In this document: positions 7,310 to 54,404 of the stretch, in pieces | How the letters are laid out: each line of letters begins with the position of its first letter | Position numbering within the stretch: position 1 is the stretch's first letter | NCBI RefSeq assembly: GCF_902506145.1 | Contig: NZ_LR733520.1 | Location: 312,580-376,579 of the forward strand | Source of the DNA: Burkholderia sp. 8Y | Lineage (GTDB): Bacteria > Pseudomonadota > Gammaproteobacteria > Burkholderiales > Burkholderiaceae | DNA length: 64,000 nucleotides | Direction of reading: 5' to 3' | The notes under the pieces: generated by a model | The model's database searches: none | What the model was told of the DNA's origin: nothing | What the model saw: only the letters and a program-made list of their open reading frames with translations | Position numbers and translations under genes: made by a program

Positions 7310-7860
7310 ATGTCATCGAATCGTCCGAGCCGTGCGCTCGTGTTCGCGTTGTGCCTGAGTCTCGCCATGCCGCCGGTCGCCGTGGCGCAGACGGGCGCGC
7401 GCGCGGTGGGCGCGGCGAGCGTGATGGAGGTCGGAGACGTGCCGAAGGCGACCGGCGGGTCGAACGTGCCGGACGCGACCAACGCGACGAATACGCTAAA
7501 TGCGACGAACACCACCAGCGCGACCAGCGCAACCAGCGCGACCAACGCAAGCAACGCGACCAACGCAAGCAACGCGACTAACGCGAAGAACGCGAAGAAC
7601 GCGAACAGCACCACCAACGCGACCAACACGACTAACGCAACCAGCGCGACTAACGCAATCAACGCGACTAACGCGAGCAACGCGACGAACCCGAGCAACG
7701 CGACGAACGCCACAAACGCTACGGACACCGTAAGCGCCAAGAGCGCGACCAACGCGACCAACGCGACCAACGCCCCGAACGAGAACAGCGCGACCAACGC
7801 TACGAACGCCGTAAGCGCGAAGAGCGTCTCCAAAGCAACGAACGCAACCAACCCGCCCAC
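7310..7860 (+). pseudogene. 5' fragment of the split M48 metalloprotease gene: signal peptide plus Asn-Ala-Thr repeat
   Basis: From ATG 7310 the reading frame gives a clean Sec signal peptide (basic RPSRALVFALCLSLAMPP, then AVAQ as likely cleavage site), about 30 ordinary residues, then a long run of NAT/NAS/NAK triplets. After about 7860 the frame leaves the repeat, reads an Arg-rich nonsense tail and stops at 7954. The peptidase body at 52104 lacks precisely a signal peptide, and moaC next to an M48 peptidase is the gene order I remember for this group. I therefore infer that these are the two halves of one gene. Alternatively it is an independent small exported repeat protein. Confidence 0.7.
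7463..7858 (+). repeat. 9-bp tandem repeat encoding Asn-Ala-Thr/Ser triplets
   Basis: About 44 imperfect copies of a 9-base unit of the form GCGACCAAC or close variants (AGC, AAG, ACG changes). In the frame of the signal peptide it encodes repeated Asn-Ala-Thr, Asn-Ala-Ser and Ser-Ala-Thr. One other frame is broken by TAA codons at 7579, 7633, 7651 and 7669. The left junction of the 44-kb insertion lies at its downstream end. Confidence 0.9.
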
Positions 7861-7881
7861 CGCTTCCACTCCGTCCACTCG

Positions 7882-8622
7882 CTTGCGAGCACGGGCGCGT
7901 TTGGCGACAAGAATGCCGCTGTCGGCAAGACGGTCAATCTCAACAACAGCTTGAGCGGCGCGGACGCGGCCAACTACACGGTGGGCGGTCAGAGCACGAC
8001 CACGGCCAGCATCACGCCGAAGTCGCTGAACATCGTCGCAAACGACACCTCGAAGGCGTCCGGCTCCGCTGACCCCGCACTGACTTGGTCGATTGCTGGC
8101 AGTGGACTGGTGGCGGGCGATACGTTGGCGGGCAGCTTGTCGCGTGCCTCCGGTGAGGCACCGGGAACCTACAGCATCAACAAAGGAACGCTGGGTAACG
8201 GCAACTACGATGTCAATCTGACGGGGGGCGTTTTCACGATCACGGGGAGTGTATCGACCCCTTCCACCCCATCGACGGCTTCGACGCCTTCGGCACCGCA
8301 AAGCCAGGCGGTGACGCCAGCGCAATACACCTTCGCTCCGGTCACGTTGCAAACTCCAACCGCGGGTGAGCTCACGTATATGGCGGTAAGCGGGCAACCC
8401 GAAACGACTGCTGCGACGGCGAGCGACGATGCTCAGCGCGTGCCCGGCGCCGACCAGTCGGCGACGCCCGTATCCGGGCAGGTTCGTCTGGCATCGCAAG
8501 CGGCTTCTGCGGGACAAGATGCCAAGTTCCTAAACGTCCTTGTGGTTTCGGGCGGGATCAAACAACCGGCTGCACCTTCATCGCCGGAGACCACACCGAT
8601 CGACCCGACTGCGGCCCAATAA
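7882..8622 (+). pseudogene. C-terminal remnant of a filamentous haemagglutinin-type (TpsA) exoprotein
   Basis: In a different frame from the repeat, an open stretch reads ASTGAFGDKNAAVGKTVNL, LSGADAANYTVGG, ITPKSLNIVANDTSKASG and GTYSINKGTLGNGNYDVNLTGG. These are YDG/MBG-type repeat domains found at the C-terminal end of two-partner secretion exoproteins. The final 110 residues are Pro/Ser/Thr/Ala-rich. The TPS secretion domain and signal peptide that should begin such a protein are missing; the sequence simply starts at the junction. It is followed after 33 bases by its presumed transporter gene. Confidence 0.85.
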
Positions 8623-8655
8623 GAGCAACGTGACTGCGATGTTCGCGCGAAACAA

Positions 8656-10305
8656 ATGAAACTATCTTACGCATCAATTCCGGCGGCAGTCTTGATATTG
8701 GCCGCTTCATCCGCTTCCGCGCAACAGCAGCCGGACGCGGGGCTAACCCTGCAAGAGAACGCGCCGCGTGCGGTGCCTGCGCCTAAAGCCACGATGCCGC
8801 TGCCTGCTGCACCCGCGCCTGTGGAAGCAGCGCTTCCAGGCGGTGCTCGAGTTGTGGTGCATCAGGTGTCCGTTTCGGGCAATACGATTTTTTCGACCGA
8901 GAAACTGCTCTCGCAGCTTGGGGATTATCGAGACAGGGACTACGACTTCGCCGGCCTGACGGACCTAGCGACGAAGCTCGCCGCTTACTATCGACAAAAC
9001 GGCTATCCCTTTGCAAGCGCTTACCTGCCGCCGCAAGCCTTGGCGGATGGAAAGCTACGCATCATGATCGTGGAGGGCCGTTACGGCCAAGTGCAGGCGA
9101 CAGGCAACCCCCAACTGAAAGACCAGGCGCAGCACTTCCTGGCCATCCTCGTGCCTGGTGAGCCGATTTCCAGCCCCGCGCTTGAGCGGGCCACATTGCT
9201 TCTCAATGACCAGCCTGGGGTAAAGATCGTTCCGGTGCTTCGTCCTGGAAGTGAGAGCGGTACGGGAGACCTGCTGGTTGACGTACAGCGAGATCGCCGA
9301 GTGACTGGGGAAGTCGGTCTCGATAACTACGGTAACCGCTACACCGGACGAGATCGTGGAACGCTTAATGTGGATGTCGACAGCCCGTTCACGTTGGGAG
9401 ACCAGATCGCATTGAGGTCGCTCGTCACGGACGAAAAGCTTTGGTTCGGTTCCGCAGCCTACGCCCTGCCGCTCGGGGCCTCGGGTTTGCGTGGCAAGGT
9501 CGGTCTTGTTCACTCGTACTACTACCTGGGTTCGAACTTCAGTGCCCTCGACGCAACTGGCACGGCGGATGTCGCAACGCTCGGGCTAAGCTATGCGGTC
9601 GTGCGCTCCCAGAACAGCAACGTCAGCGTGTCTGCGACGTTCCAGCACAAGCAGTTGCACGACAAGCAAGGCGCAGTTGATTCGAGCACCCGCCGCGCGA
9701 GCGACAGCATACCTGTCGAGATGGACTTTGACGTGCGGGACACGCTGGTCGGGGGAGGCTTGACCTATGGTGCCGTGACCTGGACCCCGGGGCACCTCCG
9801 CTTGAGCGACGAGATGTATTCGCTCGACGCGAATACTGCACGAACCGCCGGGAGATATTCCAAGGTAAACGTCGATGTTGCCCGCATTCAGTCGCTCGTG
9901 CGACACCTTGATCTCTACGGACGCTTTGCGGCCCAATGGACGCGCGACAACCTTGATTCATCCGAGAAGTTCGGGCTTGGCGGCATCAACGGGGTACGTG
10001 CTTACCCAAGCGGCGAAGGTTACGGTGATAAGGGATGGCTTGCACAGCTTGAACTCCGCTACACGCTTGGTGCATTCGTGCCATATGCGTTCTACGACGC
10101 CGGCAGCGTGGCGTTGAACGCGTCGCCTTGGCAGGCAGGAGCGAACCATCGCAGCATTGGCGGTGCCGGTCTGGGCGTGCGCTACTTGCGAGGCCGCTGG
10201 AGCGCCAACTCGACGATCGCGTGGCACGTGAAAGGTGGTGCTCCGACGTCTGATACGCGAGATTCAATTCCGGTTGCGTGGGCTAGCGTATCGTACCGAT
10301 TCTGA
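8656..10305 (+). CDS. two-partner secretion outer-membrane transporter (ShlB/FhaC/HecB family, TpsB)
   Basis: 549 residues. Signal peptide MKLSYASIPAAVLILAASSASA, a Pro-rich linker, a POTRA domain (VHQVSVSGNTIFS through LRIMIVEGRYG, about residues 70-145), a second POTRA-like part, then a 16-strand barrel ending in VAWASVSYRF with terminal Phe. FGLGGINGVRAYPSGEGYGD is the conserved barrel motif (VRGY/F-type) of the loop that enters the pore. It exports a TpsA partner across the outer membrane. The only partner visible is the truncated remnant just upstream, so this transporter is probably orphaned. Confidence 0.93.
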   Translation: MKLSYASIPAAVLILAASSASAQQQPDAGLTLQENAPRAVPAPKATMPLPAAPAPVEAALPGGARVVVHQVSVSGNTIFSTEKLLSQLGDYRDRDYDFAGLTDLATKLAAYYRQNGYPFASAYLPPQALADGKLRIMIVEGRYGQVQATGNPQLKDQAQHFLAILVPGEPISSPALERATLLLNDQPGVKIVPVLRPGSESGTGDLLVDVQRDRRVTGEVGLDNYGNRYTGRDRGTLNVDVDSPFTLGDQIALRSLVTDEKLWFGSAAYALPLGASGLRGKVGLVHSYYYLGSNFSALDATGTADVATLGLSYAVVRSQNSNVSVSATFQHKQLHDKQGAVDSSTRRASDSIPVEMDFDVRDTLVGGGLTYGAVTWTPGHLRLSDEMYSLDANTARTAGRYSKVNVDVARIQSLVRHLDLYGRFAAQWTRDNLDSSEKFGLGGINGVRAYPSGEGYGDKGWLAQLELRYTLGAFVPYAFYDAGSVALNASPWQAGANHRSIGGAGLGVRYLRGRWSANSTIAWHVKGGAPTSDTRDSIPVAWASVSYRF

Positions 10306-10675
10306 AACTCCCAACCGAGAAGGGCAACGGCTGCAGCAATGCGGTCGAAGGCGTCGGATTCAGGCAAAAGCGGAAAAGCAACAAAAGCGGAGAGGCGACA
10401 TATCAGTCTCACGAAAGGCTTTTCCATGTTGCTCCAGCCACGCACGATGGCCGATAAGAAGCGTTCGGCTCTGCACAAGCCGCCGGCCATGCGCTGCACT
10501 GTTCGCTAGGGCTTAGCGCGCCGAAAGGCCCTTGCCGTTTTCATAAAATCATGCAGTCATCGTCGGCACGGCTTCTGCGGCGCCACCGGTCGCTATCGAT
10601 CGCGCACGGCGCGATTGTGAGCGAGGCAAAGAGATGTTTTGCACCCCTCGCGCTGGCGACTTTCAAAGAATTAAA
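10306..10675. other. intergenic region without recognisable gene
   Basis: 370 bases between the TpsB gene and the hybrid kinase. Small open frames exist, but none has a recognisable product or clear ribosome-binding site. No convincing terminator hairpin with a T tract was seen. Confidence 0.5.
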
Positions 10676-12256
10676 ATGACGAATTACCGCTCGCGACCGC
10701 AACTCGAACCGGCAGAGCAGAAGCTGGACCGTCTTCAACTGGCGGTGGAGGCCGCCGATATCGGCACGTTTTTCTGCCCCCTACCGCTCGGCCGGCTGTA
10801 CTGGAACGCTCGTTGCAAAACGCATTTTTGGCTTCCAGCGGACACCCCAGATGCCGAGGTCGCCATCGATACCTTCTACCGTGTGATGCATCCCGAAGAC
10901 CGGGAGCGGACGCGGGCGGCGGTTGATGCGTCAATCAGCAGTGGGACGCCCTACGACATCGAATTTCGGACCGTCTCACCGCACGGCGACGTCCGCTGGT
11001 TGCGAGCAAAAGGTGGGGCGACTTTCGATGCCGGGGGGCGCGCGGTCCGCTTCGACGGCATAACAATTGATATCTCCCGCCAGAAGCGGCTGGAGGCCGA
11101 GCGGATTGAGCTGATCCACAGCGAACGACAGCAACGGCTTGCAGCTCAGGCCGCCAATGCGGCCAAGGAGACGTTCATTGCGGCCGTCTCCCACGAACTC
11201 CGCGCACCATTGATGGCCGTTCTGGCATGGACGGACCTGCTTGACCGAGCCTCGGCCGACGCGGATTTCATCAATAACGGAATATCTGTCATCCGCCGCA
11301 ATGTGGTGATGCAGGCGCGCCTTGTCGACGACTTGATGGACGCAAGCCGCGTCGGCAGTGGGAAGTTCGCTGTCAAGAAAGAGTCAGTTACTGTGACGGA
11401 CTGTTTGCACGCTGTTCTACAGGACTTTCGGCCTATGGCGGATGAAAAAGGTGTTTTCGTCGCTGACCTTATTGCGGAGCCGGTGCAGCTTTTCGGTGAC
11501 GGGGCGCGCCTGCAACAGGTATTTGGCAATCTACTGAACAACGCCCTGAAGCACACGGACCGCGGCGGCAAGATCCTCCCGTCAGTTGTAGTCGATGGGA
11601 ACGCCGTGCGAATCAGCATCGCCGACACCGGGTCAGGGATACCGTCTGACAGGTTGGAACAAATCTTTCAGCCGTTCGTGCAGTTGGAAAACGTGGCGAA
11701 CCGTGAGGGCAGCGGTCTGGGTCTCGGACTCGCCATTTCGCGAAGCATCGTCGTCATGCATGGGGGAGACATCACCGCGCAGAGCAGTGGCCCCGGCCAG
11801 GGCGCTACCTTCACCGTGATCCTACCTGTCGGGAACGGAGATTCAGCGTTCGGATTGCTTGCAGAGCAACCGGCGGGAACTGCGTCGGCACTCGACGGCA
11901 AAAACGTCCTGCTTGTTGAGGATCACGTCGATACCTTGGAAGCTCTTTCGATCGTTCTTCGGTCTGAAAATGCGATCGTCACGGCCGCGAGGTCAGCCGA
12001 TGAAGCGAGGAGCCTGTTGAGCCTCAACCCGCCGGACGTCATTATCTCTGACTTCTCTATGCCGGCCGAGAGCGGCTTCGGCTTCATCAGAGGCTTGCGC
12101 GAAAGGGGGATCACGACGCCCGCCATTGCGCTGACCGGCCATATCGGCGGGGAAGACGAACGTGCGGCGCTAGACGCCGGCTTCAACGACTACCTGGGCA
12201 AACCGGTCGACCGTCCAAGACTTCTTGAAGCCATCGTCAGGCTGCTAGGTGGCTAA
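10676..12256 (+). CDS. hybrid histidine kinase (PAS-HisKA-HATPase-receiver)
   Basis: 526 residues from ATG 10676 (an in-frame upstream start at 10634 would add 14). No membrane segments, so a cytoplasmic sensor. A PAS fold with PAC motif spans about residues 20-140 (GTPYDIEFRTVSPHGDVRW, ITIDISRQK). The HisKA H-box AVSHELRAPL carries His173; the ATPase domain has NALKHTD (N box), DTGSGIP (G1) and GSGLGLGLAI (G2). The C-terminal receiver has DVIISDFSMP with phospho-acceptor Asp near 459 and the KP motif. No cognate regulator is adjacent. Confidence 0.92.
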   Translation: MTNYRSRPQLEPAEQKLDRLQLAVEAADIGTFFCPLPLGRLYWNARCKTHFWLPADTPDAEVAIDTFYRVMHPEDRERTRAAVDASISSGTPYDIEFRTVSPHGDVRWLRAKGGATFDAGGRAVRFDGITIDISRQKRLEAERIELIHSERQQRLAAQAANAAKETFIAAVSHELRAPLMAVLAWTDLLDRASADADFINNGISVIRRNVVMQARLVDDLMDASRVGSGKFAVKKESVTVTDCLHAVLQDFRPMADEKGVFVADLIAEPVQLFGDGARLQQVFGNLLNNALKHTDRGGKILPSVVVDGNAVRISIADTGSGIPSDRLEQIFQPFVQLENVANREGSGLGLGLAISRSIVVMHGGDITAQSSGPGQGATFTVILPVGNGDSAFGLLAEQPAGTASALDGKNVLLVEDHVDTLEALSIVLRSENAIVTAARSADEARSLLSLNPPDVIISDFSMPAESGFGFIRGLRERGITTPAIALTGHIGGEDERAALDAGFNDYLGKPVDRPRLLEAIVRLLGG

Positions 12257-13627: not shown

Positions 13628-13657
13628 GAGATTCGTCGGGTGATCGGGCGAGATGGG

Positions 13658-14362: not shown

Positions 14363-14423
14363 TGCTTCCTCGGAGTTTCGGTCAATCGGAATCGGTCAAT
14401 CTGGAAACGCAGCGGGATGCCGC

Positions 14424-16202
14424 TTACTGAACCTGGGTCCCGCAGTTGTCGCAAAAGCGCGAATCGGCTTCGAGCGCTTCGCCGCATGCGCTGCACGACG
14501 CGCCCGCCTGGGCGCTGCGTTGCGCGGCCTGGCCGCCCAGCATGTCGCGCATCCGCGGCGACAAGAGATGCTCGGTCGCGCCTTCGCCGACGCGATTGAG
14601 CGCGTTGGCCCCGGCGATTTTCTCGATATCGCGCTGCGACGTCGGCGCGACGACGATGGTCTGCTGTTGCGCGCACTGCTCGATGAGCTGGCGGATTTCG
14701 CGGGCGTCGACGGGCAGCCCGCGCATGCCGACGATCATGCGGCGGTGGTCGCGGCCAAAGGCCACCGAATCGATCTCAGCCACCCACACGCGCACCGACA
14801 TGTCGTGCACTGCGATCACGTCGCTTTCCGTGCGCACGCGGTCGCTGAACTGCGCGCCGAGATTCATGCGCGAGCGCTGGAAATTGCCGTCGAACTGCAC
14901 CCAAACGAGCTTTGAGAGAAAGTCGAAGCGCGCCCACAGCATGTGTCCCGCGCGCAGACAGAACGCGCCGACCGCGAGCATCGCGCTGCCGAACGTGGCC
15001 CAGCCGAGCGCGGCCGATTGCACGTCGGCGGGCGAGGCCGCGAATTCCGTGGCGAACCACAGCAGGCAGATCACCGCGACGCCGATCAGCGCCACGCCGA
15101 AGGTATTCAGGCTCACCAGCCAGCGGTAGCGCGGCTCGGTGAAGGCGCGCTTGAGATCCACGCGGCGCATGTCCTCGCGCGGCAGCGGCTGGGTTTCCTC
15201 GAACAGCTGGCCGGTGAACTGACCGGACTGTCCTGCCACCGACGGCGTGTGGCGCGCATAACGGCGGTTAGGAATCTGCTCGACCCAGCGGCGCTGCAGA
15301 TGGCGCTCCAGTTCATCGAGCAGCTGCTTGGGCTGGCCGTTCATCGACACCGTGGCGATCTCGCTGCCCATGCTCGTGCGCGGCGTGACCACGGTCTGAC
15401 GCACGAGCGCGATGAAGAACAGCACGACAGCCACGCCCGCGCAGATGAGCAGCGCGAACGTCTGCGTGGTCAGCGGCAGCCAGCTTAGGTCGGGCAGGTG
15501 AGTGGAGACGAGCGGCACCACGATCGGTGCGAACACGGCCACCAGCAGCAGGCCGATGAGTCCAGCCGGGCTGAGCGAGGTGCTGGCCTGGTTGCCTTGC
15601 TCCATCGGCTTGAGCAGCAGGAAGAACGCGAAGCCGAAAAACAGCAGCGCGACCCAGGCGCGATCGGACGGATTGTCGAAGCCCACCGCGGCGATGATGA
15701 AGCTCAGGAAGGTGGCCGCGAGCGCGAGGCCCGACTGGAACTGCAGCTGCGCGAGGCGGCGAATCGGGATCGGCGCGTAGATGAGGGCGGGGATCAACGA
15801 ATAGAGCAGGCCGTTCAGCGCGCCTTTGGGCTCCTCGAACCACAGCGCGCCGGAGCGCATGCGGTTTTGCAGTTCCGCCGCGTCTTTCGTGACGCCGTCC
15901 TGGTTGCTGGCCTGGATCTCATCGCTCAGGCCAAGCGGCTGGCCGCGTCCGAAGTAAAAGCGCAGCTGCATCATGCCGATGCGGGCGTAATTGATGCCGC
16001 TGCCAAGCAGGAAAATGCCCATCGCAAGCGGCAGGAACGCCCACAGACCGTGATGGGCCGCCAGCTTTTGGCGGCTCAGCAGCAACGCCGCGATGCCGCC
16101 GAGAAACAGCAGCGCGGCGGCGGCAAAGCGGAACCAGTTCTCGACACGGAACGGATTCGGCAGGTTGAGGCGGTCGCCTTCGGAACTGAATTCAAACGAC
16201 AT
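14424..16202 (-). CDS. polytopic membrane protein with C-terminal zinc ribbon
   Basis: 592 residues from ATG at 16202, with GGAG upstream; the open frame continues upstream but overlaps the previous gene. About eight hydrophobic segments occur in three groups (residues 30-75, about 160-300 and 395-460), separated by soluble parts including LLDELERHLQRRWVEQIPNR. A cytoplasmic domain near the end (VIAVHDMSVRVWVAEIDSVA) is followed by the terminal zinc ribbon CSACGEALEADSRFCDNCG. I do not recognise the family. It begins 17 bases after the preceding stop, consistent with one transcript. Confidence 0.75.
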   Translation of the reverse strand: MSFEFSSEGDRLNLPNPFRVENWFRFAAAALLFLGGIAALLLSRQKLAAHHGLWAFLPLAMGIFLLGSGINYARIGMMQLRFYFGRGQPLGLSDEIQASNQDGVTKDAAELQNRMRSGALWFEEPKGALNGLLYSLIPALIYAPIPIRRLAQLQFQSGLALAATFLSFIIAAVGFDNPSDRAWVALLFFGFAFFLLLKPMEQGNQASTSLSPAGLIGLLLVAVFAPIVVPLVSTHLPDLSWLPLTTQTFALLICAGVAVVLFFIALVRQTVVTPRTSMGSEIATVSMNGQPKQLLDELERHLQRRWVEQIPNRRYARHTPSVAGQSGQFTGQLFEETQPLPREDMRRVDLKRAFTEPRYRWLVSLNTFGVALIGVAVICLLWFATEFAASPADVQSAALGWATFGSAMLAVGAFCLRAGHMLWARFDFLSKLVWVQFDGNFQRSRMNLGAQFSDRVRTESDVIAVHDMSVRVWVAEIDSVAFGRDHRRMIVGMRGLPVDAREIRQLIEQCAQQQTIVVAPTSQRDIEKIAGANALNRVGEGATEHLLSPRMRDMLGGQAAQRSAQAGASCSACGEALEADSRFCDNCGTQVQ

Positions 16203-16219
16203 AGGGGCTCCGCGGACCG

Positions 16220-17923
16220 TCATTCGATGGACATGTTGTTGAGCGCGCTTTGCTGGGCTGCCTTGGCGCGCTTGCGCAGCGACAAGGCCTGCGCGTTGTG
16301 CGGGTCGAGGCGCAGCACGGCATCGGCATTCGAGATCGCGCAGTCGAACTTCTTGTTGCTGAAGCAACTGGTGCCGTCCGAGAGATTGCCCGCGATGGCC
16401 GCGCGGATGGTGGCGTTTTCGCCGCCACTGGTCTCGGCGGACGGCGCACTCTTTTTGGGCTTTTCGCGCACGTGCGGCGCGGGCGCTGCGGGTTCCGGCG
16501 CGGCGGTTTGTGCAGGTGCCGGTGCTGGCGGCTCGGCTTGCGCTCGCGGTTGTGCTTGCGGTTGTGCCTCGATCGGCGCCGGGTTAGACGCTTGAGCTTG
16601 CGGCCGCGTATCGATGATTGTTGCGCCCGTGGACGCGGCGTTTGCTTCGCTTCCCGTGACCGCCGGCGCGTCGGACGCCGGTGCGTCTAACGCCGCGCCC
16701 AGCGACGGAGCGGGCATGGACGCGGCGTCGTCGGCGGGCGCTGCCGACGGTGCTTCCGATGCCGCCTTGACGAACGGCGCAGCGGATGCCGCGCTCGGGG
16801 CGCTCGCGGCCGTGTCGTCGGACGCGGCGGGGGTGTGATGCGAGCGCAGCATGAGGCCCGCGCCTACCGCCACGCCCACCACGACCACGACCACGGCTGC
16901 GCCACCGATGATCCACAGCTTCTTGCCGCCGCCCGACGCGGCAGCGGAGGCGGAAGGCGCGGCAGTGGTGGCGCCGCTTTTACGGGCGGCTTGCGCGGTT
17001 GCTGTGTCCTGCGTTTGCTTCGCTTCAGAGCGCATGGCGGAATCCGCTTCGCGCGGTGTCTCGCGTTGAATCCCGGGTTCCGGTTGCGGCTCAGGCTCCG
17101 CCTGCGGCTCGGGTATCACGGGAGATACGGTTTCCGCAGCGGCGCTATCCGCAGTCCGCGCCGCTTCGGGAGCGGCGACGAAAGCAGCTTCGGCGCGCGT
17201 CTCGTCGGTTGCGTGCGCAACGACGGGCGCTTGCGCAACTTCTACTAGAGGCTCCACGGCGTCGACCGGCGCCTCGACGACCTGCGTCGGCGCGCTGAAG
17301 TCGAAACGGCAGCCTCGGCAATAGCGCTTGCCTGGCGTGCGCACGGTCGCGCATTGCGGACAAACTTCGGTAGCCTGTGCATCGTCCGCGATCGGCGCAT
17401 CAGGGGCGCTTGCCACGAAGGCCGCCTGAACAGGTGTGTTCTCGAACGTCGCGTGCGTCTGGGGCGTGGCGCTTTCGGCGAACGTAGCCGGCGCTTCGCC
17501 GATGGTAGCCAGTTCGGATTCAGGCGCTTGCGGGGCAGTGGGGCGCGTCTCTTCGCACACCGCCTCGACAGGCTCGGGCAGCGTTTGCTGCCGTGCGGCC
17601 GCGATCGACGGTGCCGTGTTATGGAGCGCCGCGAAATCGAAACGGCACTGGCGGCAAAAGCGCTTGCCCGGCACGCGCGCCGTTGCGCACTGCGGGCACG
17701 CCTGTGCCGTTGCCGCGATGGCAGCGGCCGCCTGCAGCGTGCTATCGGGGCAGGCGTCAACCGCCGGAGCGGTGGCGAACGTGGGCTGCTCCACGGGCGC
17801 GGCCGCGTCGCGATTCAGGTCCGGGGCGGCGGACGCAGCGGCGGCGCGCAGCATGCCCATGCCGCATTGCTTGCAAAACTTTGCGCTCGGGCTATTCGAA
17901 AAGCCGCATTTCTGACAACGCAT
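16220..17923 (-). CDS. single-span membrane protein with three zinc ribbons and TPR-like end
   Basis: 567 residues. Three zinc ribbons: CQKCGFSNSPSAKFCKQCG (residues 3-21), CPQCATARVPGKRFCRQC (about 75-92) and CPQCATVRTPGKRYCRGC (about 188-205); the last two are near duplicates. A long Ala/Pro/Glu linker leads to one transmembrane helix (LWIIGGAAVVVVVVGVAVGA, about residue 330). Another Ala/Pro region precedes a C-terminal helical repeat (CFSNKKFDCAISNADAVLRL) resembling TPR/Sel1. Topology is probably ribbons inside and the TPR-like end in the periplasm. Low complexity makes homology hard to judge. Confidence 0.75.
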   Translation of the reverse strand: MRCQKCGFSNSPSAKFCKQCGMGMLRAAAASAAPDLNRDAAAPVEQPTFATAPAVDACPDSTLQAAAAIAATAQACPQCATARVPGKRFCRQCRFDFAALHNTAPSIAAARQQTLPEPVEAVCEETRPTAPQAPESELATIGEAPATFAESATPQTHATFENTPVQAAFVASAPDAPIADDAQATEVCPQCATVRTPGKRYCRGCRFDFSAPTQVVEAPVDAVEPLVEVAQAPVVAHATDETRAEAAFVAAPEAARTADSAAAETVSPVIPEPQAEPEPQPEPGIQRETPREADSAMRSEAKQTQDTATAQAARKSGATTAAPSASAAASGGGKKLWIIGGAAVVVVVVGVAVGAGLMLRSHHTPAASDDTAASAPSAASAAPFVKAASEAPSAAPADDAASMPAPSLGAALDAPASDAPAVTGSEANAASTGATIIDTRPQAQASNPAPIEAQPQAQPRAQAEPPAPAPAQTAAPEPAAPAPHVREKPKKSAPSAETSGGENATIRAAIAGNLSDGTSCFSNKKFDCAISNADAVLRLDPHNAQALSLRKRAKAAQQSALNNMSIE

Positions 17924-17965
17924 TCTAGGTCTCTGTGGTCGTGGTGGCTGGGCGGGGCGTGCTCG

Positions 17966-19123
17966 CTAGTCGACGCGACGCAGGCGCTCGCTGCCGAAGC
18001 CCAGTGAAAATTCAAGGGTGTCGTGGTCGATCACCTTGATGAGGGCGAAGTTCGTGCCATCGTGCTTCAGATAAAACTGTTTGTTGTCCTGCTTGTCGAC
18101 GACGTATTCGATCGCCGTTGTATTGCCTCCGAAGGTGGCGCTGTCGCGCGTGAATTCGATCACGCTGTTGATGGTGTTCCCCTCGCGCCATCTGCCGACA
18201 TACGTAGGCCGTGAACCGAACAGGCCGGACACCGCGCTAGCAATCTTGCTGAAAAGGCCCTCGCCCGAGCGGCTTTCGCTGCGCGCGCGGCCTTGCATCC
18301 CGCCTTGCAGGCCGTTGAGCAGCGCGACTTCGTCGTTCGCGCTCGTGCCGTTGTCGATCTGCCAGCCGTGATCGCCCTTCACCAGCGAAATGTAAGTGGT
18401 CTTGGGCAGATTGGCGAAGCTATTGGGCTCGGCGCGCTGGGCTTCCGGCGTCTTTGTCCAGGCGTCCGCGTTGCGATAGGCGTAGCCATACCTGCCTTGC
18501 GTGTGCCAGCGCTCGCCAATCTTGACCGGCTTGGTGAAATCGACGGAGGTTACCGTGAGTCCATCGGCGAAACAGAGCCTGCCGTCGTGAATCTTCTCTT
18601 CGCCCAGCGCCGTATGCGAGAACTGCTGGCCGTCGCCGAACATAAACGCATTGGCGACCGGCTGCGGCGGCCCGTAGATGCCCGCTTTGGACAGCACCTG
18701 CAGCCATTGCAGCGTGCTCGCGTCAAAGCCGCCCACCACGACGGGGTTCTTGCCGTAGGGGAAATCGCTCAGACACGTTGCGCCTGCAACCTTCGTTTTG
18801 TCGGCGTTCAGCAGATCGCCGAGATCGGACGCGGAGGGCGTGGACGGCGGCATGGCCAGGAATGCGGTGATGCCGCCCGCAACCACCAGCACGGCGACAC
18901 CGACGCCGCCCCCCAAAGCCACCTTGCGCCAGTTGCTGTCAAGCGGGACTGCGGCGGGCGCGGCCGTCGGGCCAGCGGGCTTGGGCCGGGGCGTGCCCGG
19001 GGCGGCCGTCGTGGCGGGGGCAGCGTTGGCGGCACGGCGTGCCTGTACCGGTGTGCCGCATTCATCGCAGAAGCGCGCATCGTGATCGTGCTTGCTGCCG
19101 CATTTGACGCAAAAGCGCGCCAT
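17966..19123 (-). CDS. zinc-ribbon single-span membrane protein with large C-terminal domain
   Basis: 385 residues from ATG at 19123, which overlaps the stop of the gene before it by one base (TAATG), a classic coupled start. The N-terminus is a zinc ribbon (FCVKCGSKHDHDARFCDECG, residues 4-23), followed by an Ala/Pro linker, one transmembrane helix (about 68-92) and a domain of about 290 residues outside the membrane. Two cysteines (CLSDFPYG, LCFADG) could form a disulfide there. Its end reads as repeated beta strands (FTRDSATFGGNTTAIEYVVD). No known family recognised. Confidence 0.75.
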   Translation of the reverse strand: MARFCVKCGSKHDHDARFCDECGTPVQARRAANAAPATTAAPGTPRPKPAGPTAAPAAVPLDSNWRKVALGGGVGVAVLVVAGGITAFLAMPPSTPSASDLGDLLNADKTKVAGATCLSDFPYGKNPVVVGGFDASTLQWLQVLSKAGIYGPPQPVANAFMFGDGQQFSHTALGEEKIHDGRLCFADGLTVTSVDFTKPVKIGERWHTQGRYGYAYRNADAWTKTPEAQRAEPNSFANLPKTTYISLVKGDHGWQIDNGTSANDEVALLNGLQGGMQGRARSESRSGEGLFSKIASAVSGLFGSRPTYVGRWREGNTINSVIEFTRDSATFGGNTTAIEYVVDKQDNKQFYLKHDGTNFALIKVIDHDTLEFSLGFGSERLRRVD

Positions 19124-20259
19124 TACACGCCTCCAGGTAGGTCGGCGCCACATTCGCCGCAGAACGCGTCTTCCGCTTCGGCGCCCGCGCCGCAGGCCTT
19201 GCAGGCGCGCGAGGCGGCATGGTTTTCATGCGCGAGCACCGCCGGTGCGTGCGGCGGGAGCGGCTCGGGTGCGAGCGGCGCGCGCGGCGCGGGAGACGCA
19301 GGCGTATCGTCCGCGGCAGGGGGCGCAGCATGCGCGCCGGCGAGGTTCAGGAAAATGTTGCAGATGCCGGCCAGATAGACGAGCAGTGGGAACGTATAGG
19401 CCAGCGCGCCGAGGATGCCGACGCCAACGAACGTTGCGAGCAGATAGCCGCTCATGCCGCTGCCCATCCCACCCATGCCGCCAAAGCCGGCAAACCCGAA
19501 GCCCGAGTAGAGCGACAGGAGACTGCCGCCAAAGCCGATGATGCCGCTTGCGAGCGCCGCCACGAATGCGGAGCCACCGAACACGATGGTCGAGGCGATG
19601 AAAGCCACGATGCCCACCATGAAGAGCAGGACCATCTGCTGCACGATCGGCGGCAGCAGGCGGCCGATATTAAACGCGCGGTTCATGCCCAGCGTGCCGA
19701 GCGCCGCGCGCACGCCATAGCCTTCCCAGAAGGCCGGCGCGGCGAGCGGGTTCACGACGAACATGAAGCTGAACCACAGGATACCGCCGATTACGGAGGC
19801 GATCGGATAAACGACCGTATAGAGCAGCGGCCCGAGGAATGGGATCTTGCAGATGAACAGCACGATCGCGAGCACGATCATGAAGGCGAGGAAGACCGCG
19901 ATTTCGATCAGGAAGATCGCCGCAAGCCGGGGCAGTGTCATCAGGCCCGCGATGAGTGCGTCCCGCGCGCCCAGCGTGGGGCGGCCCTGAATCTGATCCA
20001 TCAGCGTCTTGCCCGCCGCCGATACGCCGGTCGCAACGAGAATCGTCGCCGCCAGCGACCCGATGAAGGAAAACAGGCCGCCAATTACGAATGCGCCATT
20101 GCTGGCGAGCGTCCCGGCAATGCCGATAAAGATGCCTGCCACAACGAGCGCCGCGACGGCACAGGCGATAAAGAGCAGAAAGGCGCGCGTATTGCGCGCG
20201 GCATCGACGGCTTCAAGAACGACGAGCGATCCGCGGATCGCGTCTTTGGAAGATGACAT
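19123..20259 (-). CDS. polytopic membrane protein with C-terminal zinc ribbon (first gene of cluster)
   Basis: 378 residues. About eight hydrophobic segments from residue 27 to 300, including a Gly/Met-rich stretch (GFGGMGGMGSGM) between two helices. A Pro/Ala linker follows, then the zinc ribbon CKACGAGAEAEDAFCGECG at the C-terminus. The membrane part resembles YIP1/DUF975-type small membrane proteins only in general layout. As first gene it likely carries the promoter of the whole cluster in the 330-base gap beyond 20260. Probably sits in the inner membrane with the ribbon in the cytoplasm. Confidence 0.75.
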   Translation of the reverse strand: MSSSKDAIRGSLVVLEAVDAARNTRAFLLFIACAVAALVVAGIFIGIAGTLASNGAFVIGGLFSFIGSLAATILVATGVSAAGKTLMDQIQGRPTLGARDALIAGLMTLPRLAAIFLIEIAVFLAFMIVLAIVLFICKIPFLGPLLYTVVYPIASVIGGILWFSFMFVVNPLAAPAFWEGYGVRAALGTLGMNRAFNIGRLLPPIVQQMVLLFMVGIVAFIASTIVFGGSAFVAALASGIIGFGGSLLSLYSGFGFAGFGGMGGMGSGMSGYLLATFVGVGILGALAYTFPLLVYLAGICNIFLNLAGAHAAPPAADDTPASPAPRAPLAPEPLPPHAPAVLAHENHAASRACKACGAGAEAEDAFCGECGADLPGGV

Positions 20260-20342: not shown

Positions 20343-20589
20343 GCGTGTTTACGGTTGTATTGCAAGAAACTTTAATGCGCGCTAAAGCGACATCGCCCGG
20401 TGCCGGTGAATCGTCCGGAATAGATGCGCAATAAATGGCATAAAGATTTCACCGCTGCTTCGAATATGTCGAGCAATGGTCTGGCGGTTTCAAGGGTGAA
20501 GCGCAACAGCGCGATTAATGTTTAGTGCCTTAAGGTTGACATGCTGATGCGAGCGTGGCGGCGAAGACCTCGAATGGCGAATGGAAGTT

Positions 20590-21245
20590 GCGCGGGGCCG
20601 GCTGTTCAGACTGTAATGACCGCTTTGCTTTCCGCAGTCGGCAGAAGGCCCTGAGTGCACAGGCAAATGGCATCTTCGACAACGAAATCGAACCAGTCTC
20701 TATCGCGCAGAAGAGAGGCGAGCCGACGGTCGTAAGTCAAGACGAGCATCCTCGCGACATGAACATCGAGTCTCTCAGCCGGTTGAAGGGCGTCAAGCCG
20801 CAAGGTACAGTCACTGCGGGCAATGCATCCGGCGTGAATGGCGGTGCGGCAGCACTTCTGTTGGCAAGCGCGGAAGCAGCATTCCGTTGCGGGCTCAAGC
20901 CGAAGGCGCGAATTCTCGGCATGGCAACGGCGGGAGTTGCGCCACGTATCATGGGTATCGGCCCGGCGCCGGCAGTTGTCGCACTTCGACATCATCGAGC
21001 TCAACGAAGCTGCGTCCCAGCGAATTGTGACGTTGCGCCTGCTCGGCCTTAAACCCGATGACCAGCGAGTCAACCCGAACGGTGGCGCGATCGCACTTGG
21101 TCACCCGCTCCGCGTGAGCGGAGCGCGCTTAATTACGACGGCAACTTATCAAGTCGAACGGACTGGTGGCCGCTTCGCAGGTTGCACCATGTGCATCGGC
21201 GTGGGCCAGGGTATTACGATGGCAATCGAAGAAGCTGCCCAGTAA
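20590..21245 (+). pseudogene. beta-ketoadipyl-CoA thiolase (PcaF-like) remnant, frameshifted
   Basis: Two frames together give the C-terminal half of a PcaF/acetyl-CoA acyltransferase: DRFAFRSRQKALSAQANGIF, VSQDEHPRD, GTVTAGNASGVNGGAAALLL in the first; FDIIELNEAASQRIV, NPNGGAIALGHPLRVSGARL and CTMCIGVGQGITMAIE in the second. The switch occurs near 20960-20980 and bases for about 15 residues are missing there. The N-terminal half with the catalytic cysteine is absent. Clearly decayed, as no start and no continuous frame exist. Confidence 0.85.
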
Positions 21246-21478
21246 CCTCGAACCGCGCTTCCATTCGCCTGAAAGCGCGGGTAGGCCCCTCACAGTTACC
21301 AGCTTAGACAGGGACGGCGGTCCATGGCCACGGTGACTTGTCACTTCAGCGTTGACTACCGATTCATGGTGCTGCGGAGCGCGATTTCCGTGCTTCGAGC
21401 GACCGCTTATAAATAAGGAGACGCCGCTAGAGTGTCTTCGGTTAGCGATATCGAATGTTCCTTTATGGCCGCTCTCTG

Positions 21479-22411
21479 TCATTGCTGCGTAATTTCCGCC
21501 TGCGTCGGCACAATGGTCTGGCGCAGCCGCGTCGCCGTCCGATGGCTGGACAACCCCATCAGGCTGCTGACCTGCTCGTTACTTTTCCCCGCAATCAAAT
21601 GACGTCGGCCGAAAGTGTTTCTAAGCAGGCGGGGACTCTCGTCAGCAGCGGAAAGATTCGCCTCGTGCAAGGCGGAGCGCACGCATTTGAGCAGCGTGTC
21701 AGGCTGCATTGGTTTGCCGGCCGTCGTCGTGATAAAGAGCCATTCAGTCGGGCACAGTACCGAGCGGCGCGCGTCTATGTAAGCGCATAGCACTTCAGAG
21801 GCGAAAGCATCGATAGGTACTCGACGCGCGATACGCGGCCCGTGCTTCTCAACGAAGACGGTAGGGCGCACGTCTTCGGCGTCAAGATCGTCGACGCGCA
21901 TTTGCCGGAGTTCAGCTGCGGTCACGCCTGCGCCTAGGAACAGCGCAACGATGGCCACGTTACGCAGTTGTTTGAACGATTCGGGTTTGGCGGAAGCAAG
22001 GATGTTTTGGAGCCGCGCATCGTCCTCTGCAGATAGATAGATTGGCGTTGGCTCGTCTTCGGGCCAGCTCTCGTTGGCGAGCATACCGGCGGCCGGGTTA
22101 TCGGCGCGCATCTCCATGTTCACCAAGTGTCGGGTGAAGCGGTCGATTAGCTTCAGGTAGCGCAGCCTTGTGCTCGTGCCGGGCGCGCAATCCCGCTCGA
22201 GGCCCGCGAAAAACCCCTCGACGTGGTCGGGACCGAACGTGGCGACTGACTGCCCATGGGCGACAAGATAGTCGTTGAACCTTGAAAACATCGAGCGATG
22301 CTGGATGATCGACTGTTCTGCGAACGCGCGACGGTCCGCGCCCGTCGCTTCCTCGCGTTGCCATTGTGCATACGCTTCTTTGGGATTGGACAGCCACAGT
22401 TCTATCGTCAT
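21479..22411 (-). CDS. divergent tyrosine recombinase (XerC/D-like), catalytic residues questionable
   Basis: 310 residues from ATG at 22411. The N-terminal SAM-like core-binding domain (residues 30-105: RSMFSRFNDYLVAHGQSVAT, TRLRYLKLIDRFTRHLVNM) and the catalytic fold are recognisable. However the first Arg of the usual GLRxSEL motif is Thr here (GAGVTAAELRQMRVDDL), the HxLR box reads SPRLLRNTF, the GHSS box is GLSS, and no Tyr occurs after it. The beta-hairpin Lys (VEKHGPRIARRVPI) remains. It may be inactive or bind DNA only. It borders the decayed thiolase, so it may mark an old integration. Confidence 0.75.
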   Translation of the reverse strand: MTIELWLSNPKEAYAQWQREEATGADRRAFAEQSIIQHRSMFSRFNDYLVAHGQSVATFGPDHVEGFFAGLERDCAPGTSTRLRYLKLIDRFTRHLVNMEMRADNPAAGMLANESWPEDEPTPIYLSAEDDARLQNILASAKPESFKQLRNVAIVALFLGAGVTAAELRQMRVDDLDAEDVRPTVFVEKHGPRIARRVPIDAFASEVLCAYIDARRSVLCPTEWLFITTTAGKPMQPDTLLKCVRSALHEANLSAADESPRLLRNTFGRRHLIAGKSNEQVSSLMGLSSHRTATRLRQTIVPTQAEITQQ

Positions 22412-22822
22412 AATCGATATACTGAATTTGGTAACACCCAAACCTAACGCGAAGCTGCCGCTTCGCCAACGCCCGGCCAACAAGAAAACGCACTTCCGCC
22501 TTCCAATTTGCACCGCGATTGTGTCGAGGCAGTCGTCTGGCCCGCCGACTACGAGTCCGCAGAGCACGCGAGCATCAGATTCGCCGTCAGCCCGAAATTC
22601 TCGATGAGATAACCGGCTTGCACCCCGTTCCGGCACCGCTAACGGACGCCGCCTTTAGGCGCTCGGGATTAGCGGAAATGCGAGCGTCGGAGCGCTAGAG
22701 CCAATTAGGTTCTCGGCGATAGTTGCCACACTATCGAAGCAGCGGCGTCGGCCGCAGAGGCGTGGCGCCACTACGCCCGACCAGCAAGGGGAGCGCTCTT
22801 CGAAGCCAGCATGTTCGGAGCC

Positions 22823-38149: not shown

Positions 38150-38179
38150 GCACGGCAGTTTACGAGTGTTCCGCGCGGT

Positions 38180-38934: not shown

Positions 38935-39017
38935 CAAATCGAAAGTGATGGACAACACTTTGCTGCGTAGGGCGGTCAGCGCCTATAACGGTTGCGACGA
39001 GCCGCTTACGCAGGAAG

Positions 39018-47704: not shown

Positions 47705-48211
47705 TTAGCTCGTTTCGCTGCTGTTAGCCTGCGATTCCCGTATCGCAAGGCGCACGTCGTCACCCAGCGGAGAAACTCGGGCGCTTCTGATGAAGCCCTC
47801 GATCCGTTCTCGTGCGAATGCCAGGTCACGATAGGTGATGCGGCGCAACTGCTCATCATGCAGCTGCAGAACTTTCTCAAAAACGGTCGGAGTTTCGGCG
47901 TCAATGAACCAATGGTCGCCATGTTTCCCGCGAGACAGACGTGCATTCAAGTTCTTCTCGGCACGCGCGTACAACTTTAGCGGAAGCGCGCCGAAGCCGT
48001 TCTCCTGAAGGAAAAGTGTCATGTAAAACACGCGCAGCAGCTCGTTGAACTGATAAGCCGCTCCGCTTCCTTCGCGCCGGCATGCGGCGAGCGCAAGATG
48101 GATGGCCAGGCACATCTTACTGGCGGTCTCAATTGGCAACGGAAGCAACATGGCGCGGGTTAGCGGACGACGCGGGCGGGCCGTGCGGCGTGAAATCGAC
48201 GAGTTTGCCAT
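47705..48211 (-). CDS. conserved hypothetical protein of Burkholderia type
   Basis: 168 residues, helical throughout, LTRAMLLPLPIETASKMCLA, QFNELLRVFYMTLFLQENGF, VFEKVLQLHDEQLRRITYRD. I recall similar proteins labelled 'Fis family regulator' in Burkholderia, though no HTH is visible to me. Its start overlaps an ISL3-type transposase remnant on the other strand. Confidence 0.55.
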   Translation of the reverse strand: MANSSISRRTARPRRPLTRAMLLPLPIETASKMCLAIHLALAACRREGSGAAYQFNELLRVFYMTLFLQENGFGALPLKLYARAEKNLNARLSRGKHGDHWFIDAETPTVFEKVLQLHDEQLRRITYRDLAFARERIEGFIRSARVSPLGDDVRLAIRESQANSSETS

Positions 48212-48377
48212 GCATAAAGGGCATCGCTACGCCACCCTAGTGGTCAATCGAATCAACCGTCAGGTGCTCTGGATTGGGCCCGGGCGCTCACGGGAGACAG
48301 CACGCGCGTTCTTCGAGCAGCTACCCGAGTGCGTGGCCGCACGCATTGGAGCCGTTGCCATCGACATGACCACGGCT
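48183..48377 (+). pseudogene. ISL3-family transposase remnant
   Basis: VRREIDEFAMHKGHRYATLV, VNRINRQVLWIGPGRSRETA, RAFFEQLP and AVAIDMTTA are the DDE-ISL3 catalytic core start (DE... and the second Asp). The flanking parts of the transposase are missing on both sides. Confidence 0.85.
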
Positions 48378-49575
48378 TGTGACTGCTGCGCAGGCGCTCA
48401 AAATCCTCACGGCGACCGCCGCACATCAGGCTTTCCACCCGTAACCGTTCCACTCGTTATCGACGGCGTTGCCGTACAAACCTTTGACGGTGCCGGAGGA
48501 GGCACCACGCAAAACGTTTTAATTGTCAGTGGCACGAGCGCGCCAGGAGCTGCGTCCGGGTTCAACCCAAACGAAGTGCTCTCTACACCGCGAACCCGGA
48601 TTGCACTAGCGAAATGTGCATCGCCAACCATCCAGAGCGGCGCCTCGATTGACGAGAAGTTTGTTATTGTCAACGACGGCAACGAAATGTCCGGGGTAAC
48701 GAGCGCTCAGCATCTCCCGGGTTGCCCCTCCTGCGGTCGATGGCACACTTTGCGACAAGGGCTGTGAGGTGGTATCTAGAAAAGCGCTCACCATATCAGA
48801 TCACGGAAGGCTCGCGGCCAGCACGAGCGTTGAGAAGCCATCCACCACCGAGTCGGCAGTGCTGCCGCGGCCTTTACCATAAAGGCTCGCGCTGGCATTT
48901 GCCCTGCCTATTTCTCCGGTGGCGTGTTAGCGAGTTGCTGCCTAGCGGACGCAGCTACGGCAGCCCCGATGCGGAGAAGCGGCGAATTAACCGAAGCAAA
49001 ATGCGGTCATGTAGTCCGCGCTAAGCTCAGAGCCGTGCACTTGGCCCAGCCTTCGCTCAATACATATAGTCGCACCGCCAAAATAACTAACCGGACGTTC
49101 GTGCAGCAGCTGGACCGCTGCAACCAATGACTGAAAGCACTCATTCTCTTCCTCCAAGCGGACCTCACAGCGGCGACCGGCCATCAACGCAGCGCACTAT
49201 CGATGCGCCATTGACCGGGTTGAGGCAAAACTTACTCAGTCTGAATAATTGCAGCGTGGCCCATTGTGCGGTAGGCCACATTAGCCGTCGAGCAAGCGAT
49301 GCAGTATCCCCCTGTACTTACGCGTCGTCTGGCGCGCTAGACGGCAAAGGAGGCACCGAATCTCGTACGGAACCGGTCAGCATCGCGCGGAGCCGCGAAG
49401 TTCGACGATCACTCTGTTTCGGTCTGCCGCGATAGTGAGACGGCCGTTTGCTTGAAGCAGGACAATAGCCTGATCTGCGACAACGGCCCGCAGCTAGTTT
49501 TTACGGTGACGCAAAAATAGCCACGTAGATTAGCACTCCCAACGTTGCACTCGTTTAGGCAAAGACGATGGTTCC
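48378..49575. other. long region without supported gene
   Basis: About 1.2 kb after the ISL3 remnant. Several open frames of 60-100 codons exist on both strands (for example minus 48407-48682), none with a family or ribosome-binding site I can defend. It looks like eroded DNA. Confidence 0.5.
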
Positions 49576-50909: not shown

Positions 50910-52103
50910 ATGAGACAAGAGGTAGCGTTAAGCCAGAAGGTGGCCACGAACGATCCACCTCGCCATGTCATGTCGCACGTTGACGCGATCTACGACGGAA
51001 GGAGGCTGGTCGCCATGGTCGCGGTCTCGATCGCCCTGGCTGGTGCCGGTTACGCGTTCATCGCGAAGCCCGTCTACCGGGCAGACATTCTTGTCCAGCT
51101 CGAAAGGGTTCAGCGCGACACATCGAAAGACGTGTACGGCGATGTGTCGACAATGTTCGACGCAAAGTCGGACTCCACTGGTGAAATGGAAGTACTAGGA
51201 TCGCGTCTCGTGGTCGGTCAAGCCGTTGACAAGCTCAAGCTCGTCGTCAACGCGTCGCCGCGCTATGTTCCAGTAATCGGAGAATTCATCGCCCGCTACG
51301 TACGTGGCGTCTCGAACCCGTGGCCCGGCGGATACGTGTGGGGCCAGGAAAAAATCGATGTCTCCCGTTTCGATGTTCCGCCGAGCCTGTATGGCCGTCC
51401 GTTCGAAATCACCATATCGACCTTACGCACTTATGAGCTTGTCTACGGTGATATCAGGGTTCACGGCATCATCGGACGCGATGTGCATGCGACCACGCCG
51501 TGGGGACCCCTTGATATACAGGTGAACGCGCTCGAAGCTCAGGCCGGCGCAAGGTTCATCGTTAAGCGATTTTCTCGGGTCGAGGTTGTCGGAGCCGTCC
51601 GTAGCAAATTATCTATTACAGACAAAGGAAAGGACGCAGACGTTATACGCGCCTCTTATGACGCGGCTGACCCGGTTGGCGCGGCGGCGGTTCTCAACGC
51701 GATCGCCGACGCTTATTTGAAACAGGATCTACAGCGAAAGTCTGAGGAGATTGCACGTTCACTTAACTTTCTTCGTCAGCAATTGCCTGAACTCAAGAGC
51801 CGAGTTGAAGCGTCAGAACGGACACTCAATGCATACCGGGCGCAGCACGGCACAGTCAGCCTTGGCGACGAGGCGACAACCTTGCTTCGCCGATCGGTGG
51901 AAGCACAGCGGCGACGGGTAGATCTTGAAGAAAAGCGACGGGAGCTTCTATCTCGCTACACGGTCGAGCATCCCGCGGTCAGTTCTATCGATTCTCAACT
52001 GCGTGTGGCAGACGACGAGATAAATCGCATAGCCCAAGAGACAGCGTCATTGCCGCCGTTGGAGCAGAACGTACTTGGCCTCCAACGTGGCCTGTGGCGA
52101 TAG
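50910..52103 (+). pseudogene. Wzz/GNVR polysaccharide co-polymerase (BY-kinase N-terminal part), truncated
   Basis: A Wzz domain with one N-terminal transmembrane helix (LVAMVAVSIALAGAGYAFIA), adjacent EMEVLGSRLVVGQAVDKLKL and a coiled coil, then GNVR core LPPLEQNVLGLQR. At the last residues (QRGLWR) the sequence diverges and stops at TAG 52101-52103. Intact proteins go on with about 40 residues including a second transmembrane helix, then usually a tyrosine-kinase domain of about 250 residues. The break coincides with the right junction of the accessory segment. Confidence 0.85.
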
Positions 52104-54404
52104 CGTGCCGCCGGAACCGTCGCCGACGGCGTATTCGGGGTCTACGGCGGCGCCGAAAGCCGCTTCGCCAATCGGCCGGGCGCGATGGCCGGCCTGCGCG
52201 CGCCGCTTTCTTCCGTCCAACTGCCGGACCTCGGCGACGGTTCCGGCGGCACGCTATCGCCACAGGCGGAGCGCAAACTCGGCGAGCGGATGATGCGCGA
52301 AGTCCGCGCCGATCCGGACTACCTCGACGACTGGCTGATACGCGACTATCTCGACTCCATCGCATCGAAGCTTTCCGCCGCCGCCGCGACGCAGTACCTC
52401 GGCGGCTATCGCCCGGACTTCGAACTCTTCGCCGTGCGCGATCCTCAGATCAACGCGTTCTCGATGCCCGGCGGCTTCGTCGGCGTCGACACCGGGCTGA
52501 TTTCGGCGACGCAGACGGAATCGGAACTCGCGTCCGTCATCGGGCACGAGATGGGGCACGTGCTTCAGCGCCACATTGCGCGCATGATCAGCGCGCAGGA
52601 AAAGAGCAGCTACGCGGCGCTCGCGGCCATGCTCGCCGGGCTGCTCGCGGGCGTGATGGCGCGCAGCGGCGATCTCGGCATGGGCATCGCGATGGGTGGG
52701 CAGGCCTTCGCCGTCGACAATCAGTTGCGCTTCTCGCGGGCAGCCGAGCACGAGGCGGATCGCGTCGGCTTCCAGATGCTCGCGGCCGCCGGCTACGATC
52801 CCTACGCCATGACGGCGTTTTTCGAGCGGCTCGACCGCGCGTCGATGGCCGATAACGGCGTACCGCCCTACGCGCGCACGCATCCGCTGACGACCGAGCG
52901 GATCGCCGATATGGAGGACCGTGCCCGGCGCGTGCCGTACCGGCAGCCGCGGCAATCGCCGGAATATGCGTTCGTGCGCGCCCGGGCGCGCGTGCTTCAG
53001 GTGAATTACGCGAGCGACTATCGCGAGGTTGCGAGCCGCCTCAAATCCGAAATCGACGATCAAACCGCGCTGAATCCCGCCGCGAACTGGTATGGCATTG
53101 CGCTGGCGCGGTCGCTGATGGGCGATTACGACGCGGCCAACGATGCGCTCGCGAGAGCGCGGCGGGTCTTCGAAGGCGATGAGGCCAGCACGGCGGCGGC
53201 TTCGGTGCAGGCGCGGCGCGAACTGGCGCAGAGCGTCGAGGGCGCTGAAAAGCGCGATGCGCGTTCCGACGATCAGCGCCGCCCGCAGCAGCAAAAGCGT
53301 GCGTCGAGGGCGCAAGGCGAAGGCGTCGCCGCATCGGCGCGCGGCGTGTCGGGTTCAGCGGCGGACGCTCGCGCCGCGACGGAAGCGCCGCGCTCATCGA
53401 CGCATAGCGACGAAGCGCGATCTTCTCAAGCAATCAACGTTCAAGGCGAGTCCGCATCAGCGGCCAACGCTCGCGTCGGAAACCCAGTTCCGCGTGCGCC
53501 CGTGGTTGGCGCCGGAACGCTATCTTCTCAAGCAGCCAATGTTCAAGGCGCGTCCGTTTCAGCGGCCAACGCTCGCGCATCGACGGACGGTCCGCGTGCG
53601 CCTGCGCGTGGCGACGAAGCGCGATCTTCACAAGCAGCCAACGTTCGAAACGCGCCCGCTTCAGCGGCGAACGCTCGCGCCGCGACGGAAGCGCCGCGCT
53701 CATCGACGCATAGCGACGGAACGCAGTCCTCTCAATCAGCCAACGTGCAAGGCGCGTCCACAAACGGCCCAACCCCACAAACCGCTGCTCCCGCGAAGCC
53801 CTTGCCGCCAGCAGTCTCGATGTCCTCGCTCCTCAGCAGCAGCGCATACGGCGCATTGAACCCCACCAACGCCGAACCCACCGCGCCGCCCGCCGCTGAA
53901 AGCCCGCCCATCGCGCTTCCGCCCGTGCGCGTCGTCGCGCAGCACGCCGCCCGCAGCACGCCGAGTCTCGACGTGCTCGCCGCCGACATCGCGCGTCGTG
54001 CGGGCCGTTACGACGCCGCCGCGCGCCTCGCCGATATCGCGCAGACGCGCTGGCCGAATTCGCACGCGGCACTCGACGTGCATCTGCAATCGCTGATCGC
54101 CGCGCATCGCTACGAGGAAGCGCAGACGCTCGCGCGCCGCGAAACGCGCGCCGAACCGGCGCGTGCCGACTGGTGGCTCTATCTCGCGCAGGCAAGCGCG
54201 GGCCTCAACGATCCGCTTCGCCAGCATCAGGCGATGGCCGAGAAACTCGCGCTCGACGGCGCGTGGCCGTCCGCGATCCGACAGTTGAAGGAAGCACGCG
54301 ATGTCAAAACCGCGAGCTTCTACGACCTCTCGACGATTTCGGCGAGGCTGCGCGACTTCGAAGCGCGCTACAAGGAAGAGCGCGCCGAGGAGAAGAAGAG
54401 CTGA
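52104..54404 (+). pseudogene. 3' part of the split M48 metalloprotease gene (BepA-like), signal peptide missing
   Basis: Open from 52104 and with ATG at 52185 (739 codons to 54404). Before that ATG the frame reads GTVADGVFGVYGGAESRFAN, clearly coding. Peptidase body: LPDLGDGSGGTLSPQAERKL, HEMGH zinc motif (residues 121-125 from ATG 52185) and AAEHEADRVG with the third ligand. A TPR-like C-terminal part follows a long repeated linker (53373-53759). Relatives are periplasmic outer-membrane quality-control proteases (BepA/YfgC) with signal peptides. None is present here; I infer that it lies 44 kb away at 7310. If made from 52185 the protein would stay in the cytoplasm. Confidence 0.85.
53373..53759 (+). 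repeat. 102-bp tandem repeat in the M48 linker
   Basis: Nearly four copies of a 34-codon unit starting at 53373, 53475, 53577 and 53679 (the last is partial). Each ends in a SAANAR-like block and contains SSQAxNV. The result is a Ser/Ala/Asn/Gln-rich disordered linker between the catalytic and TPR-like parts. Confidence 0.85.

Follow-up and report, generated by a model that had tools for sequence, protein, structure and literature searches.

BepA, also named YfgC, is the described protein with which the protease at this locus is best compared. BepA is an M48 metalloprotease of Escherichia coli (PMC7950410), and the gene in the window shares with it the HEXXH motif (as HEMGH), the region of the zinc-binding glutamate (AAEHEAD), the HPX4R plug motif (as HPLTTER; motif definition from PMC7950410) and an N-terminal signal-like sequence, the last judged by eye. 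The window is the whole 64-kb stretch of DNA that was analysed, bases 312580-376579 of contig C2 (3,117,014 bases) in an assembly of 37 contigs and 6.28 Mb. The gene differs from BepA in three respects: its right half, whose best NCBIfam match is M48_BAM_BepA (E 1.3e-85), reaches 288 bits when scored alone against an equivalog cut-off of 570; it carries long low-complexity arrays, both in an N-terminal linker and after the catalytic domain; and it is split in the assembly. Two kinds of artefact also resemble the locus. Repeat-induced misassembly in bacterial genomes likewise produces breaks and wrong joins at repeats (PMC5771137), whereas the sign here, in a draft, is an exact 127-base overlap at either end of a single contig that is very probably misplaced. 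In amplified DNA libraries, artificial palindromes likewise place a perfect short-range inverted copy at a join (PMC6218980).

The break points in the protease gene lie at 7879|7880 and 52089|52090 and enclose 44,210 bases. The window is made up of A, C, G and T alone, and its joins are accordingly free of Ns. The features of the locus, in window coordinates, are as follows.

4821-6641, plus strand: Wzy_C/PglL_A ligase (Pfam)
6661-7152, minus strand: moaC, the conserved left neighbour of the M48 gene (Pfam MoaC, E 2.5e-57)
7310-7879, plus strand: 5' part of the BepA-like M48 gene, assigned by comparison with the N-termini of relatives
7879-7880, no strand: left junction, where the M48 5' part meets the start of the 44-kb contig (127-base run with contig C35, extending 0 bases leftward)
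7880-52089, no strand: the segment, very probably one misplaced assembly contig (exact 127-base runs at its ends; Pfam content)
7880-8622, plus strand: 3' part of an fhaB-like adhesin gene with an MBG domain (MBG_2, E 1.4e-18); its 5' part is on C35
8656-10305, plus strand: fhaC/shlB two-partner secretion transporter (ShlB, E 1.3e-29; POTRA_2, E 4.9e-18)
21479-22636: integrase (Pfam)
37067-40111 and 48102-48767: IS genes (Pfam)
50910-52089, plus strand: 5' part of a wzc-like tyrosine-kinase gene (WZC_N and Wzz); its 3' part opens contig C18
51963-52089, plus strand: exact overlap with the start of C18 and, reverse-complemented, the start of contig C13 (127 bases each)
52089-52090, no strand: right junction, a butt join of the 44-kb contig to the M48 3' part (runs stop at 52089; inverted repeat from 52090)
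52090-52126, plus strand: fold-back arm, a perfect reverse complement of 52231-52267 (37 nt, 100%, 104 nt between the arms)
52127-54404, plus strand: 3' part of the BepA-like M48 gene with the catalytic domain (Peptidase_M48; NCBIfam M48_BAM_BepA below cut-off)
54994-56100, minus strand: alpha/beta hydrolase, a downstream neighbour (Abhydrolase_1, E 1.1e-13)
56759-57925, minus strand: heptosyltransferase, waaF-like
58288-59208, minus strand: class IV aminotransferase, ilvE-like

The left fragment of the M48 gene is an open frame with an ATG at 7310, headed by a start that resembles a signal peptide by eye, and includes a 9-bp tandem array at 7473-7809 (37 copies; Tandem Repeats Finder) that encodes an Asn-Ala-Thr linker. 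The right fragment is a 739-codon frame from 52185 that remains open 5'-ward as far as a stop at 52101-52103. Its translation contains HEMGH, AAEHEAD and HPLTTER and matches Pfam Peptidase_M48 (PF01435, E 2.9e-34), and Pfam with a limit of E 0.001 found no TPR family in this half. Upstream of its first ATG, and in frame with it, the right half encodes the peptide GTVADGVFGVYGG, and relatives have a similar peptide. Judged by family, the predicted role of the protease is outer-membrane quality control of the BepA kind, as described in PMC7950410. A 102/204-bp tandem array is also present within the gene at 53343-53759, 3' of the catalytic domain.

Much of the first-pass annotation agrees with these observations. 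The two fragments and their breaks are present, with ends within tens of bases of where it had placed them; its left half, a signal peptide and repeat, and its catalytic right half were both recovered; and its flanking ligase, moaC, heptosyltransferase and aminotransferase genes are recognised by profile. Its neighbour 'YheT' is an alpha/beta hydrolase by Pfam, the name YheT itself being that reader's label. The right half had been said to begin abruptly in a frame that is coding upstream of its first ATG. The upstream coding is borne out by the in-frame peptide, but the right piece opens with 37 bases (52090-52126) that repeat 52231-52267 as a fold-back.

That the two halves were once one gene had also been proposed, and comparison with moaC-adjacent M48 genes upholds it. 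The best 80 of 140 related loci served as relatives, and the best named relatives of the M48 protein belong to Caballeronia, which makes the host probably a member of that genus. One open frame spans the break point and reaches HExGH in 79 of these 80, and a minus-strand moaC lies less than 1 kb upstream, again in 79 of the best 80. A frame was counted if it was open with a Met upstream and ran through the FGxYGG motif to HExGH; the count thus stops short of the far C-terminal end (locus L035 ends at a contig end), and in L084 the frame terminates 288 codons past FGxYGG, the counted region being that up to HExGH. The lone exception to both counts is L029, from Candidatus Paraburkholderia kirkii, in which the match has no in-frame N-terminal part upstream and no moaC was found in the locus. 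Between moaC and the point that matches 52185 there are 342-751 bases in the 79 relatives (best 80 of 140), against 45,033 in the window. The M48 protein of Caballeronia sp. GAFFF1 (L005) is 51% identical to the left half over 183 aa and 75% identical to the right half over 739 aa, and that of L086 (genome G012) is 46% identical to the left half over 170 aa. Both L005 and L086 have an N-A-x linker of like kind. By eye, the N-termini inspected in the remaining relatives look shorter than those of these two linker-bearing proteins. Because a single frame with moaC as its neighbour is found in 79 of the best 80 relatives, 7310-7879 and 52127-54404 are parts of a single BepA-like M48 gene.

The idea of two separate genes, one for a small repeat protein and one for a shortened protease, could appeal to the possible start codon in each half, yet 79 of the best 80 of 140 relatives have both parts in one frame at this place and the left half aligns with the N-terminal part of this very protein in L005 and L086, which leaves the idea a vanishingly small probability. 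A Pfam search for M48 domains in the source genome returned four places, one of them that of the window. A second intact copy of the gene was considered and rejected, the other three places resembling the right half weakly (35% over 51 aa, 26% over 182 aa and 30% over 188 aa).

By Pfam, the segment between the halves holds the fhaB 3' part, fhaC, kinases, the integrase, chemotaxis genes, IS genes, Tad-like genes and the wzc 5' part. It starts within the fhaB-like gene and ends within the wzc-like gene, so that both end genes are cut. When segment DNA from 8656-12256 was used as the query against 24 genomes other than the source, only partial matches were obtained, in three of them, and with this query the native order of the segment was not found in these 24 genomes, so that gene order in relatives gave no help in placing it. 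The transposase genes at 37067-40111 and 48102-48767 are of IS66 type, Mutator type and, in part, ISL3 type. At 20555-22636 a thiolase fragment (profile positions 173-259 of 260) adjoins the phage-type integrase gene, and the two perhaps mark the edge of an older island. Three adjacent minus-strand frames with zinc-ribbon matches occupy 14424-19153.

Both ends of the segment coincide with exact matches to other contigs. At the fhaB end, the segment matches C35 (105,847 bases) near the end of that contig, within a 258-base repeat: window positions 7880-8006 equal C35:105514-105640 over exactly 127 bases, with 0 further to the left. The final 127 bases of C35 also occur at C35:105463-105589, and no suffix of the contig longer than exactly 127 is repeated. 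The end of C35 and the start of the segment are two different 127-base stretches, 51 bases apart, of the same fhaB repeat. A short repeat piece would lie between them; the last 400 bases of C35, used as a query against the source genome, brought up no contig that represents this piece separately. At the wzc end, the segment matches the first bases of C18 over 127 bases at 100% and the first bases of C13 over 1180 bases at 98% on the reverse strand. The largest k-mer that the assembler SPAdes permits is 127. Four runs of this one value are what the ends of an assembly graph give, and a biological break has no reason to fall there.

The genes cut at the segment ends also continue on these contigs. 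The fhaB frame of C35 is open from 102339 to the contig end (1169 codons), and its frame agrees with that of the window in the shared bases. The wzc frame is open from the start of C18 and runs for 389 codons to a stop. On the Wzc model PRK11519 (720 positions), the window piece covers 24-377 and the C18 piece 337-718. Because the cut fhaB and wzc genes continue there, the sequences that truly adjoin the 44-kb piece are most likely those of C35 and C18, rather than the M48 gene. The stretch C13:1-1180 (L098) is a 98% identical copy of the wzc-like gene, so a polysaccharide cluster seems to be duplicated in the source genome.

The features expected of a mobile element at the segment ends were looked for in turn. 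No abutting target duplication or att repeat was found; the longest direct run shared between the segment ends is 5-6 bases. Terminal inverted repeats were also not found, the abutting inverted match being 1 base and the longest inverted shared run 7 within the end 60 bases. For shared runs of this kind the random mean is 5.9 and the 95% point 8, so the ends have no more in common than chance would give. No integrase or transposase lies at a segment end, all being internal, and ARAGORN found no tRNA in the 64-kb window. Insertion of a mobile element was rejected on the absence of end repeats and the internal position of the integrase and transposases, and a tRNA-targeted island on the absence of a tRNA from the window.

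The right junction has a further peculiarity. The 37-base fold-back begins at 52090, immediately after the last base of the 127-base overlap, and it contains the stop codon (52101-52103) that closes the upstream frame of the right half. In 79 relatives (from the best 80 of 140), the longest exact inversion at this place has a maximum of 12 bases and a median of 8. A fold-back native to the M48 gene was rejected on this comparison, and the fold-back is read as an artefact at the end of an M48 contig.

A similar join is found at C5:586778 (L117 position 8779), which begins a 127-base exact run with the end of C18 and the start of contig C23 that extends 0 bases leftward. The gene ending on C18 is a group 1 glycosyltransferase (Glycos_transf_1, E 3.1e-21); its 5' part is on C18, and C5 has its last 98 codons, beginning at the join. 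Among frames of at least 120 codons around C5:586778, none crosses the join. Because a glycosyltransferase gene is cut there at an exact 127-base run, this type of join is not unique to the window. It was the one other case examined closely in the search for similar joins.

The 44-kb segment is almost certainly no insertion and is most likely an assembly error, an assembly-graph contig butt-joined into a break in the protease gene, because 127-base runs occur at both ends and the cut genes continue on other contigs, and because end repeats are lacking, a fold-back lies at the right junction and a like join exists at C5:586778. A de Bruijn graph with k=127 probably underlies the draft, and SPAdes would be the likely assembler. 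The M48 gene would have come out as two contig ends close to its repetitive linker, with the fold-back artefact on the right-hand end, and the graph contig of 44,210 bases would have been bounded on the left by the fhaB tandem repeat and on the right by the duplicated wzc gene. Scaffolding or gap closing may then have set this contig into the gap, end to end and without Ns; we infer the order of these steps and the kind of program behind the join. In the cell, the likeliest place for the 44-kb piece is between what the assembly gives as C35 and as C18, and the M48 gene of the source strain most likely runs unbroken beside moaC, its protease probably being uninterrupted. Read in this way, the locus offers a clear case of a draft-assembly join that mimics the disruption of a gene by an accessory island, and fixed-length exact overlaps with other contig ends offer a quick test of split-gene claims in short-read drafts.

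The first-pass annotation had instead described a 44-kb accessory segment inserted in the genome and a protease disabled by it. A real insertion or translocation that removed the protease would fit the complementary halves of the gene, the lower GC content of the segment (0.609, against 0.649 and 0.656) and the presence of an integrase and transposases within it. Such an event, however, leaves unaccounted for that each end falls at an exact 127-base run shared with other contigs and that both end genes continue elsewhere in the source assembly; the ends also lack any duplication or inverted repeat, the integrase and transposases are interior, and the window has no tRNA. A real insertion is consequently judged highly unlikely, and neither the insertion nor the loss of the protease is supported, the segment ends being graph ends with continuations on other contigs. 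Assembly error had been named beforehand as an outcome that could overturn that annotation, and it is where the evidence points. Were the insertion true, a BepA-like protease would have been lost and an adhesin and polysaccharide block gained, which would be of moderate interest.

A second, moved copy of the fhaB-to-wzc region could truly sit inside the M48 gene with its ends at repeat boundaries by chance, a periplasmic quality-control protease being lost and a two-partner secretion and polysaccharide block gained at a single stroke, but this is exceedingly improbable. Alternatively, a chimeric DNA fragment or chimeric long read from library preparation could have linked the 44-kb piece to the M48 gene and so led the assembler astray. 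With its perfect match, the fold-back at 52090-52126 resembles a template-switch product, and PMC6218980 and PMC13141652 report artificial palindromes and inverted-repeat chimeric reads from amplified and ligated libraries. A chimera has no reason to end exactly at 127-base runs on either side, however, and while it may account for the break at the M48 contig end, it does not account for the choice of ends of the 44-kb piece, so that as the origin of the join it is extremely unlikely.

Further shared runs link C13, C37, C2:1843247 and C5:915362, of which four of six pairs are exactly 127 bases and two of six are 126. The stretches C2:1843247-1843373 and C5:915362-915487 (L131 and L132) share these 126-127 bases with the ends of C13 and C37, and it is possible that they are further joins or correctly resolved repeats.
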